From Planococcus halotolerans (lineage in GTDB: Bacteria; Bacillota; Bacilli; Bacillales_A; Planococcaceae): a stretch of DNA of 64,000 nucleotides. Each line of letters starts with the position of its first letter. Positions within the stretch are counted from its first letter, which is position 1. Of this stretch, positions 1,657-5,490 are shown piece after piece. The notes under the pieces are model-generated. The model searched no databases. It was given only the letters and a program-made list of their open reading frames with translations, and had not been told where the DNA came from. The stretch lies in contig NZ_QLZR01000003.1 in the NCBI RefSeq assembly GCF_003289955.1, positions 1 to 64,000 on the forward strand. Reading direction: 5' to 3'. The position numbers and the translations under genes were made by a program.

Positions 1657-2108
1657 ATGACGAAGTGACCTTCCGCAAAATGACAGTCGACGATGTGGAT
1701 GCTGTATTTGAGATTGAGCATTCATCCTTTTCTTTACCATGGACAAAAGAAGCCTTCCATTATGAAATGATGGAAAACAGGCATGCTTATTATGTTTTGG
1801 CTGAAACATCGGATGGAATCGTCGGTTTTTGCGGCTTATGGATTGTCATGGATGAATGCCATGTGACCAATATCGCCATACGGCCGGAACAGCGCGGCAA
1901 AAAATTGGGTGAGAAACTCATGATTGCTGCAATGGAGACGGCAAAGGAAAATGGGGCAAAGGCGATGACTCTTGAAGCCAGAGTGAGCAATACTATTGCA
2001 AGAAACCTTTACGAAAAACTTGGATTTAAAAATGGAGGCATCCGGAAAAGCTATTACTCAGATAATTTTGAGGATGCCATAGTGATGTGGGTGAATTTTG
2101 ATGAATGA
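1653..2108 (+). CDS. rimI: Ribosomal protein bS18 alanine N-acetyltransferase RimI
   Basis: 151 aa GNAT-fold acetyltransferase. The acetyl-CoA loop is seen as [14 protein letters not shown] (about residues 77-90), followed by [19 protein letters not shown], the conserved beta5-alpha4 region of the RimI family, and a C-terminal [12 protein letters not shown]. RimI acetylates the N-terminal alanine of ribosomal protein S18; in Firmicutes it is almost always kept within the t6A cluster, as here. The start overlaps the tsaB stop (ATGA), and the end overlaps the tsaD start by 8 bp. Family assignment is firm; the exact protein substrate is inferred from the family. Confidence 0.93.
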
Positions 2109-3120
2109 AGACATCTATGTATTGGGAATAGAGACAAGTTGTGATGAAACCGCGGCGTCTGTAGTAAAAAACGGTACGGAAATCATCTCTAACGTTGTCG
2201 CTTCACAAATTGAAAGCCATAAGCGCTTTGGTGGAGTTGTACCGGAAATCGCTTCAAGACATCATGTCGAACAGATTACATTGGTGATTGAAGAAGCACT
2301 GCAGCAGGCAGAAATGACTCCAACTGGGTTGAGTGCAGTGGCTGTAACCGAAGGGCCAGGATTAGTCGGTGCTTTATTGATTGGCGTAAATGCAGCGAAA
2401 GCTTTTGCGTTTGCCCATCAATTGCCGATTATCGGAGTGCATCATATAGCAGGCCATATCTATGCCAACCGGCTTGCGCAGGAAATGGAGTTTCCTTTAC
2501 TTGCTCTAGTGATTTCGGGTGGACATACAGAACTGGTATATATGAAGGAACATGGCCATTTTGAAGTCATTGGGGAAACCCGTGACGATGCAGCAGGGGA
2601 AGCGTATGACAAAGTAGCGCGTACGTTGAACCTTCCGTATCCAGGAGGCCCTCATATTGACCGTCTGGCACATGAAAGCACAAACCCGGTCGATTTTCCG
2701 CGTGTTTGGTTGGAAGAAGGCTCTTATGACTTCAGTTTCAGCGGCTTGAAATCATCGGTATTGAATTATATGCACAATGCGGCGCAGCGCGGGGAACAGG
2801 TGAAACCTGAAGATGTTGCTGCCGGATTCCAGAACAGCGTAGTTGAAGTGGTTACTGCCAAAACCCTGAAGGCAGCTGATCAATACAAGGTACGGCAAGT
2901 GATTGCAGCAGGAGGGGTGGCAGCCAATAAAGGCTTGCGTGCTTCTCTTGAAAAAGAGTTTACAGAGAAAGGCATTCCTTTCTTTATTCCGCCGTTGCGT
3001 TTATGCACCGACAATGCAGCGATGATTGCGGCCGCAGGGACAGTGATGTTTGAAAAAGGCATCCGCGGAAATATGGCCATGAACGGCCGTCCAGGAATGG
3101 AAATGGCTTCATGGATTTAA
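2101..3120 (+). CDS. tsaD: tRNA N6-adenosine threonylcarbamoyltransferase TsaD (Gcp)
   Basis: 339 aa catalytic subunit of the t6A complex that moves the threonylcarbamoyl group from its AMP ester to A37 of tRNA. It shows the signature [15 protein letters not shown] at the N-terminus, the metal-binding HHIAGH motif (about residues 110-115), [20 protein letters not shown] and a C-terminal CTDNAAMIA. Start taken as ATG 2101; a TTG one codon earlier is in frame but less likely. Last gene of the t6A cluster, followed by a terminator. Known as gcp or ydiE in B. subtilis. Confidence 0.96.
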
Positions 3121-3140
3121 ATTGTTAATAAATAAATACT

Positions 3141-3185
3141 AAAAAGCTCTTTATCCACAATTCAGATAAAGAGCTTTTTCTTTTT
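3141..3185. terminator. Terminator after tsaD, with a DnaA box in the hairpin
   Basis: AAAAAGCTCTTTATC pairs with GATAAAGAGCTTTTT and is followed by CTTTTT. The hairpin also works on the other strand. The perfect DnaA box TTATCCACA (3151-3159) straddles the stem and loop. Confidence 0.85.
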
Positions 3186-3468
3186 GTGCATAAGTAAGCT
3201 GGAAATCGGAAATTTAATGAAAAAATGCGAAAATTCCATGGACTTATCCACTTTTTATAAACAAACCACTTAAATTCTGTCAATAGAGAACATTTGTACT
3301 TATGCACAATTTGTTAGTAAGCTGTTTGTAAGTCGAGAATAACTTGGTGATTTCCTATATCTTGTGTACCATATAGCAGGATACTATGTGGGTAACTTTT
3401 TTATTGATTGTGGATAATGTGCATAACACTGTTGATAGTTGATGCACAAGGAGAAGCGATGTGCACAA
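3151..3468. promoter_or_regulatory. Cluster of DnaA boxes in the tsaD / ABC-F intergenic region
   Basis: Five exact matches to TTATNCACA lie in about 280 bp: 3151-3159 (+), 3185-3193 (-), 3300-3308 (+), 3409-3417 (-) and 3418-3426 (-), the last two head to tail with no gap. Three one-mismatch copies lie at 3244-3252, 3440-3448 and 3460-3468. Chance would give about 0.01 exact matches in this length on both strands. No gene or promoter explains the spacing. The region lies between convergent genes and is AT-rich. It probably binds DnaA outside the origin, as DnaA-box clusters do in B. subtilis; to my memory the gcp-ydiF gap is one such site there, which would make this a conserved locus. Confidence 0.8.
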
Positions 3469-3515
3469 CTTTGTGGAAATAAATATTTTACAAAAGGGTA
3501 TTGACCAAGATATGG

Positions 3516-3547
3516 ACAAAGAAAAACCGCATACAAAAGTATACGGT
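3516..3547 (-). terminator. Terminator of the ABC-F gene
   Basis: On the minus strand ACCGTATAC, a four-base TTTT loop and GTATGCGGT are followed by TTTTTCTTTG. The stem begins at the ABC-F stop codon. Confidence 0.75.
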
Positions 3548-5490
3548 CAATTTGCTAATTGTTCAAGTTTTTCCTGCAATTCAAGCCATAACGCCATTGT
3601 TTCTTCGTGTTGCCCTTTCAGTTCTTCCAACTGCTGCTGCAGAGGAAGCAGGCGTTCATGATCCTGGAAAATTTCAGGGTCGGTGAATTGCTCTTCTGTT
3701 TCGGCAATCTGTAAATCCAGTTTTTCCATATCCTGCTCAACTTCTTCAAGCTGGCGCGTCAATTGGCGTTCCAGTTTTTTTGCTTCCTTATCGATTTGTG
3801 AAGTAGAGGCGGCAGTTTCCGGTTTATTGATGACAGAAGGATTTTCAGCTTCTTCCAATGCTTTCAATTCTTCTGTTTCCAGCTTCTTCTCTACATAATA
3901 ATCGTAATCGCCAAGGTACTCGGTCGTACCTTCCTTCATCAACTCGACCACTTTTGTGGAAATGCGATTCATGAAATAACGGTCGTGGGATACGAAAAGG
4001 ATGGTGCCGGGATAGTCGAGCAACGCGTTTTCAAGGACTTCCTTGCTGTCGAGGTCCAAGTGGTTGGTCGGTTCATCGAGCAATAAAACATTCGCTTTTT
4101 GCATCATCAGTTTCGCGAGTGCCACCCGTGCTTTTTCGCCGCCAGAAAGAGATGAAACGGGTTTTAATACGTCGTCGCCTGAGAACAGGAAACGGCCGAG
4201 AATGCCCCGAATATCTTTTTCGTTGACCATCGGATAATCGTCCCATAGTTCGTTTAATACGAGTTTATTACCTTTCAGGTTTGCCTGTTCCTGGTCGTAA
4301 TAGCCGAATTGGATGCCGGTGCCGTAATGGATGTCGCCATTAAGCGGCGGAATTTCCTTAATGATTGTTTTCAGTAACGTCGATTTGCCGACACCATTCG
4401 GTCCGACAAGAGCGAGGCTTTCCTGGCGGTACAGCTTTACATTGATGTTTTCGGAGACCGGTTTTCCGCTGTATCCGATTTTTAAATCACGGACATTGAG
4501 CACATCATTGCCACTTTGTTTGGCGATAGTGAAGCCGAAACGAGCTGATTTTTCATTGCCGTCGGGCGCTTCCATCCAATCAGTTTTTTCGAGCACACGG
4601 CGCCGGCTTTGAGCCATTTTAGTCGTTGACGCACGGACCAGATTGCGGGCGACATAATCTTCGAGCTTCGCTTTTTCGCTTTGCTGTTTTTCAAACTGTT
4701 TCTGGTCCAGCTCGTACTGTTTCGCTTTTTCGTCGAGATAACGGCTGTAGTTGCCGGTGAATTTCCGGACCTGGTGGCGTGACACTTCATAGACAATGTT
4801 AACAACCTGGTCCAGGAAGTAGCGGTCATGCGATACGACCAGGATGGCGCCGGGATAATTCTTCAAGTAATTCTCAAGCCAGCTCAATGTTTCGATGTCC
4901 AGGTGGTTGGTCGGTTCATCGAGAATCAATAGCTGCGGCTTGGTCAGCAGATGTTTGGCGAGCATCAGGCGGGTTTTCTGGCCGCCTGACAATGAAACCA
5001 CTTTTTTGCCGTAATCATCGGAATAGAATTTCATGCCGTGCAGGATGGCGCGGGTATCAGCTTCGTACTGATAGCCGCCGGCGTCCTTAAAAGCGTGCTG
5101 AAGAGCATCGTATTCCTGCATCACTTTTTCGTTGATTTCCTGATTGTTGTAGACAGCAGGATCAGCCATCTGTTCCTCGAGCCGGCGCAATTGCTGTTCC
5201 TGTTCGCGGAAGCCACTGAAGATGGTCATCATTTCGTCCCAGATTGTCATGTCGGATTCAAGCTTGGACTGTTGCTCGAGATAGCCGACAGTCAAATCTT
5301 TTGGCATGATGATGTCGCCGCTGTCATACGATATTTCCCCGGAAATAATTTTCAGCAGCGTTGATTTTCCTGCGCCGTTCCGGCCGACTAGAGCGACCCG
5401 GTCCCGGTGCTGGACTTCTAATTTAACGCCGGAGAGGATTTCCTCCGCCCCGAACGATTTATGGATTTGGTTTACTTGCAATACGATCAT
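3547..5490 (-). CDS. ABC-F family ATP-binding protein (YdiF-like translation factor)
   Basis: 647 aa soluble protein with two ABC ATPase domains and no membrane segment, the layout of the ABC-F family that acts on ribosomes. Domain 1 has Walker A GRNGAGKST (about 37-45) and signature LSGGQKTRLMLAKHLL. Domain 2 has GPNGVGKST and LSGGEKARVALAKLMM. Both have LLDEPTNHLD. The interdomain linker (about 250-320) is charged and helical, and the last ~90 residues form a Glu/Lys/Gln-rich coiled coil. It is transcribed against tsaD and away from rex. The position matches B. subtilis ydiF. The exact role (translation quality control or antibiotic protection) cannot be read from sequence. Confidence 0.92.
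   Translation of the reverse strand: MIVLQVNQIHKSFGAEEILSGVKLEVQHRDRVALVGRNGAGKSTLLKIISGEISYDSGDIIMPKDLTVGYLEQQSKLESDMTIWDEMMTIFSGFREQEQQLRRLEEQMADPAVYNNQEINEKVMQEYDALQHAFKDAGGYQYEADTRAILHGMKFYSDDYGKKVVSLSGGQKTRLMLAKHLLTKPQLLILDEPTNHLDIETLSWLENYLKNYPGAILVVSHDRYFLDQVVNIVYEVSRHQVRKFTGNYSRYLDEKAKQYELDQKQFEKQQSEKAKLEDYVARNLVRASTTKMAQSRRRVLEKTDWMEAPDGNEKSARFGFTIAKQSGNDVLNVRDLKIGYSGKPVSENINVKLYRQESLALVGPNGVGKSTLLKTIIKEIPPLNGDIHYGTGIQFGYYDQEQANLKGNKLVLNELWDDYPMVNEKDIRGILGRFLFSGDDVLKPVSSLSGGEKARVALAKLMMQKANVLLLDEPTNHLDLDSKEVLENALLDYPGTILFVSHDRYFMNRISTKVVELMKEGTTEYLGDYDYYVEKKLETEELKALEEAENPSVINKPETAASTSQIDKEAKKLERQLTRQLEEVEQDMEKLDLQIAETEEQFTDPEIFQDHERLLPLQQQLEELKGQHEETMALWLELQEKLEQLAN

Follow-up and report, generated by a model that had tools for sequence, protein, structure and literature searches.

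An ordered cluster of DnaA boxes in the tsaD/ABC-F gap of Planococcus halotolerans: a candidate extra-oriC DnaA-assembly site with a three-box core that recurs across Bacillota

The passages of PMC4447404 on the DnaA-binding regions of Bacillus subtilis describe region 4, "downstream of gcp; downstream of ydiF," as having 10 sites in vitro, with a Kd of 0.15 µM for ATP-DnaA versus 0.33 µM for ADP-DnaA and a 16-fold preference for ATP-DnaA at 55 nM, and they give further DnaA peaks at yydA/yyzF and ywlC. The same passages state that the regions are too few to define the features (orientation, spacing) that confer the ATP preference. When six extra-oriC clusters were deleted together, initiation occurred early, as summarized in parts of two reviews (PMC5295017 and PMC13220808), and the deletion phenotype was strong only when all six were gone (PMC5295017). 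According to a section of the second review, published in 2026, overproducing DnaA approximately 10-fold did not provoke over-initiation when B. subtilis was otherwise wild type, and whether this species has regulators of DnaA ATP/ADP interconversion is unknown (PMC13220808). Here, we examined a 64-kb stretch of P. halotolerans DNA (the window), in which tsaD (positions 2101–3120, + strand; TIGR03723, E = 4.1e−132) and the gene encoding an ABC-F ATPase (3547–5490, − strand; NF000355, E = 1.3e−140) converge on a gap of 426 bp (3121–3546), with a Rex-like ORF next after ABC-F in the ORF list. We take tsaD to be gcp and the ABC-F gene to be ydiF. The original prediction for this gap had pointed to a gcp–ydiF DnaA cluster in B. 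subtilis, and region 4, as described in those passages of PMC4447404, matches it. Our leading explanation, which the sequence evidence makes moderately probable, is that the gap is an ordered extra-oriC site of DnaA assembly that would sequester ATP-DnaA.

No ORF of at least 80 amino acids was found in the gap, and an RNA element was rejected there, with no Rfam match at the gathering score over positions 3121–3546. Within 318 bp (3151–3468), at a density equal to that of oriC, lay five exact TTATNCACA DnaA boxes, each of them where it had been predicted, and five boxes with one mismatch rather than the three originally counted. Conservation was scored over 25 aligned Planococcus-type gaps, that of the window included; the near-identical loci L001, L002, and L025 were excluded from this count, and box 3151 was exact there too. 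The exact boxes TTATCCACA at 3151–3159 (+) and TTATGCACA at 3185–3193 (−) are recent, being exact in 1/25 gaps (the window itself) and 2/25 gaps, respectively, and the exact box TTATGCACA at 3300–3308 (+) was exact in 25/25. On the − strand, the exact boxes TTATCCACA at 3409–3417 (exact in 21/25 gaps, one mismatch in 4/25) and TTATGCACA at 3418–3426 (exact in 7/25, with one mismatch in 12 and two in 6) abut head to tail, confirming the gapless pair noted at 3409–3426. After a 3-bp spacer, a degenerate box with two mismatches follows at 3430–3438 (−; TGTTGATAG on the + strand), and the three boxes make up a tripartite core (3409–3438; TGTGGATAATGTGCATAACACTGTTGATAG on the + strand) with one mismatch to the core pattern given below. 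The boxes with one mismatch were TTATCCACT at 3244–3252 (+), TTATAAACA at 3255–3263 (+), TTACCCACA at 3387–3395 (−; exact in 20/25 gaps and 22 bp ahead of 3409), TGATGCACA at 3440–3448 (+; not conserved, 1/25), and TTGTGCACA at 3460–3468 (−; one mismatch in 20/25, 51 bp past 3409 and 42 bp past 3418). A box with two mismatches at 3472–3480 (−) was conserved as such in 24/25 gaps.

A terminator-like hairpin directly 3′ of tsaD (3141–3179; assigned by the scan to the − strand) includes box 3151–3159, as had been claimed, and the hairpin scan gave another 3′ of ABC-F (3525–3548, −). A third terminator-like hairpin (3369–3391, 8 pairs, +) falls within the cluster, overlapping box 3387. Between the + and − boxes, at 3350–3372, is an AT-rich CTATATATTGTG-like block that is conserved in Planococcaceae gaps. 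The non-box block TGTCAATAGAGAACATTTGTAC (3278–3299, no strand assigned) abuts box 3300, is almost invariant in Planococcus-type gaps, and is still recognizable in Lysinibacillus-type gaps. It resembles a LexA box; a LexA site at 3278–3299 was not adopted, in view of a constant mismatch to that box.

The draft genome contained 146 exact boxes in 3.62 Mb, so that approximately 0.013 would be expected in 318 bp, in line with the approximately 0.01 originally estimated. The original prediction would have been weakened had such clusters been common in this genome, and they proved uncommon: in the full lists, inspected by eye, five exact boxes within 370 bp occurred at three places, namely oriC (C1:928762–929058), C1:896576–896944, and the tsaD/ABC-F gap. 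The second of these clusters (L208:3077–3445) adjoins rlmH and a gene for a CxxH/CxxC protein, and a group of three exact boxes at C1:100204–100318 (L210:1705–1819) lies at the 5′ end of the L-threonylcarbamoyladenylate synthase gene. The former is probably the B. subtilis yydA/yyzF peak, and the latter is taken for the ywlC peak. With these two sites and the gap matched, three B. subtilis extra-oriC sites therefore seem to have counterparts in this genome. Two of its three extra-oriC box groups, in the tsaD gap and at C1:100204–100318, adjoin t6A-synthesis genes.

In the named ABC-F set (the best 80 of 200 relatives, of which 3 were dropped for want of tsaD, leaving 77 measurable), the gap was convergent in 77/77 loci, each with 2–7 exact boxes. 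The 46.2 kb lying 3′ of tsaD contained 331 boxes versus 42 in the remaining 899 kb, with 1 match of a reversed-pattern control; over the 600 bp 3′ of tsaD, the density was 7.16 boxes/kb versus 0.047 in the rest of these loci. A TIGR03723 search for tsaD itself covered 250 class genomes and a 61-genome draw from the phylum, class and phylum being taken from the named relatives to be Bacilli and Bacillota, respectively. The 3′ side was read at 95 class loci (the 30 best-scoring ones and others picked by family) and at 58 of the 59 phylum loci drawn beyond G000 and G003, one incomplete locus being dropped. The first 700 bp 3′ of tsaD held at least two exact boxes at 49/95 class loci (27/48 families) and at 35/58 loci of other classes (32/52 families); the family counts are raw tallies, uncorrected for tree shape, and L088, L122, and L216 were counted with less than 700 bp 3′ of tsaD (147, 494, and 372 bp). 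The 153 loci held 292 boxes, and the reversed pattern gave 4 matches, with two per locus in 0/153. A compositional accident of AT-rich intergenic DNA would agree with the count of boxes of at most one mismatch in the 64-kb window as a whole (51 versus 54.4 in shuffled sequences), but it is rejected on the reversed-pattern controls; the excess of boxes in the window is only local.

The claim that the locus is kept across families while its neighbors change thus held more widely than had been proposed. Two boxes within 700 bp were absent from 21/48 class families and 20/52 others (41/100), including f26, f16, f31, f21, and f25, and this counts against our leading explanation. Two loci scored negative, L116 (f9) and L126 (f35), have a cluster farther out, at 1923–2061 and 845–1020, respectively, and, among the matches listed, the core lies 2.7–9.8 kb 3′ of tsaD in 3/4 f3 genomes with both places and 2.5–2.8 kb 3′ of it in 3/5 f9 genomes. 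At tsaD of E. coli K-12, the sole locus from another phylum, there were 0 exact boxes in an 8.5-kb stretch. The gap cluster is probably the orthologue of the B. subtilis gcp/ydiF cluster and was probably ancestral in the phylum. Neither the phylum-wide spread nor the three-box core was found in the literature searched, within which the phylum-wide linkage to tsaD and the recurring core appear new.

The next gene beyond the cluster was the convergent ABC-F gene in the named loci and variable elsewhere. Among ten tested, its product was a PAS-domain protein, LGT, a radical SAM/DUF512 protein, an ABC ATPase, 5-FTHF cyclo-ligase, or a 2Fe-2S protein, and 4/10 had no Pfam match above cut-off; since the next gene varies, the cluster does not serve one downstream gene. 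Outside the named families, many of the loci sampled had a co-directional next gene, so that the cluster lies upstream of it, which counts against our leading explanation. Boxes in the 5′ region of such a gene would be expected if the cluster chiefly regulated transcription of its neighbor, and DnaA is a transcription factor at some sites, as stated in a passage of PMC4447404. However, such a role is very unlikely: the gap was convergent in the window and in all of the measured named loci, next-gene identity differed among the ten tested, and the two promoter-like sites in the window region, the same number as in shuffled sequences, both lie within the 3′ end of ABC-F.

Box architecture was compared over 59 families, using for each the one locus richest in boxes. 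Orientation was 162:36, and same-strand spacings of 15–125 bp had a period of 10.8 bp (R = 0.52), with 0/1000 jittered sets as strong; opposite-strand pairs had a weaker period, with 1/1000 jittered sets as strong. This jitter null ignores relatedness, and related gaps share spacings through ancestry. Past the 22-bp pair, the next same-strand box lay at 51–52 bp in Planococcus- and Lysinibacillus-type gaps (in the former, a one-mismatch box) versus 63 bp in Bacillus-type gaps, corresponding to five versus six helical turns, and the + boxes of Lysinibacillus-type gaps were spaced by 43–44 or 53–54 bp. In a mechanically neutral sponge, box number alone would matter and the order would be inherited by descent; the turnover of box number, 3151 and 3185 being recent, and the ancestral sharing of spacings, which lies outside the jitter control, are consistent with this. 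We nonetheless consider it quite unlikely, because spacing shifts by whole turns between gap types, phasing is strong over 59 families, and the core is retained while the flanks are unalignable. A plain sponge would not need conserved orientation, phase, and core, and "titration" is therefore at best an incomplete description. The reported lack of over-initiation upon approximately 10-fold DnaA overproduction (PMC13220808, in the section cited) likewise counts against simple titration, and it also counts against our leading explanation. The preferred order and spacing of the boxes suggest an old DnaA-restraining device rather than a random sponge.

The head-to-tail core follows the pattern TGTGGATAA-TGTGNATAA-N3-TGTTRATAA, with all three boxes on one strand at 3409–3438 and in the recurring cores. 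In families of other classes, it recurs as abutting TGTGGATAA boxes, 3 bases, and TGTTRATAA: at ≤4 mismatches, within 900 bp of tsaD and in one orientation, it was found in 21/52 families, 13 of them with no mismatch, and the opposite orientation gave one locus. Over these 21 families, identity was 0.83 in the core versus 0.32–0.33 in the flanks, the core value being partly selected, and so inflated, because the pattern was derived from the same loci. Genome-wide, at ≤3 mismatches, 35/61 phylum genomes had 61 core matches (reversed control, 0), and, on the 3′ side of tsaD, 25 matches in 24 of these 35 genomes were no more than 3 kb away, with 23 no more than 1 kb away; the one in G305 had the reverse orientation. 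Among the matches listed, the core was present in 139/250 class genomes (control, 1) and in 18/22 genomes of the window's own family; of the ten genomes of this family with a tsaD place, G165 had no core match, and the other nine had it at 257–491 bp on the 3′ side of the tsaD match. In the P. halotolerans genome itself, 3409–3438, with its one mismatch, was the sole match at ≤3 mismatches. The exact 18-base tandem pair occurred in 78/250 class genomes (control, 0). As a point against our leading explanation, an exact abutting pair was present in just 4/27 positive class families versus 17/32 positive families elsewhere.

Away from tsaD, there were 36 core matches, 20 of which were fetched (L242–L261). 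Thirteen of these 20 adjoin a ComF-family gene, the gene for the ribosome hibernation factor hpf, or both (both in seven), for example at L257:3042–3071 and L261:2974–3003; the ComF and hpf names come from two representatives, and the ComF match was under its curated cut-off. The comFC–hpf core may be a second old, phylum-wide DnaA element, on which no paper was found in the literature searched. A pair of cores separated by approximately 2 kb occurs in several f16 genomes (for example, G054:C11:8739 and 10711), perhaps flanking dnaA, and no box was present on the two f16 tsaD 3′ sides read.

The oriC of P. halotolerans lies beside dnaA–dnaN on contig C1 and the window on C11, with gene identity judged by order and sequence. 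In its unwinding region, abutting tandem boxes, as in the gap, are followed by TACTACTATTATTAC, that is, a DnaA-trio is present. This likeness and the AT-rich block of Planococcaceae gaps might point to a second or relic replication origin, and in the oriC basal unwinding system (BUS), as described in part of PMC8287927, tandem DnaA boxes likewise form a loading scaffold. The tsaD cores differ from BUS in having no DnaA-trio beside the boxes: a trio-like repeat occurred within 30 nt of 0/21 cores, and inspection of the window showed none to the left of 3409, so that the gap has neither a DnaA-trio nor dnaA–dnaN adjacency. A second origin is therefore extremely unlikely.

Phased head-to-tail boxes without a trio are instead what would be expected of our leading explanation, a site on which DnaA would form an oligomer without opening the DNA. 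We infer that DnaA would bind the gap in P. halotolerans and that the phased head-to-tail boxes around the three-box core would nucleate a cooperative, preferentially ATP-bound oligomer, which would open no DNA, the core probably staying closed because the DnaA-trio is missing. Of 33 genomes searched for dnaA, 17 had both genes placed on one contig of available length, and in these the distance between tsaD and dnaA was 258–718 kb (6.3–26.6% of the contig). Our draft genome, with the two genes on different contigs, is not in this set, which includes two genomes without boxes (G303 and G257), two with one box (G270 and G308), and two with the cluster farther out (G095 and G033). At a place of this kind, presumably origin-proximal in P. 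halotolerans as well, the locus would be duplicated early in the replication cycle, and the additional copy would then sequester DnaA and restrain re-initiation.

Among described systems, the gcp/ydiF cluster, as presented in the passages cited, shares with this gap its approximately ten sites, dense boxes outside oriC, and the same position 3′ of tsaD and ABC-F, whereas the Planococcus gap belongs to another family, has added boxes of its own, and contains the Planococcaceae 22-bp block. In place of one DnaA cluster of B. subtilis, there is now a non-coding element that extends across the phylum, has a defined core, and is retained as the adjacent gene changes; its natural variants make testable whether features such as orientation and spacing underlie the ATP preference, for which the regions in PMC4447404 were too few. 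DARS1 and DARS2 of E. coli likewise have a three-box core outside oriC; in the relevant part of PMC5742627, DARS box I points the other way from boxes II and III and ADP-DnaA is preferred, whereas the boxes of the tsaD core all point in one direction. E. coli datA (DDAH), as described there, is non-coding and origin-proximal, with three same-direction boxes, two of high and one of low affinity, and needs optimized spacing; the core at 3409–3438 has the same make-up, with affinity judged by mismatches only. A datA-like role of the three-box core, with which the 16-fold ATP-DnaA preference of gcp/ydiF and the unknown ATP/ADP regulators of B. subtilis would agree, is unlikely: datA, which has another place and spacing, works with IHF, and both IHF and the datA locus itself are absent from B. 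subtilis according to the cited section of PMC13220808, and datA boxes 2 and 3 flank the IHF bend, whereas two boxes abut in the tsaD core. Tentatively, and as a rather doubtful extension, the tsaD-linked core might be an ancestral Bacillota regulator of DnaA nucleotide state or oligomerization, fixed beside tsaD before the classes split and with a sister copy beside comFC/hpf. If this were true, the core, already a concrete candidate for a regulator of DnaA ATP/ADP interconversion, would be the one whose existence in B. subtilis the 2026 review treats as unknown, and a Gram-positive counterpart of datA.
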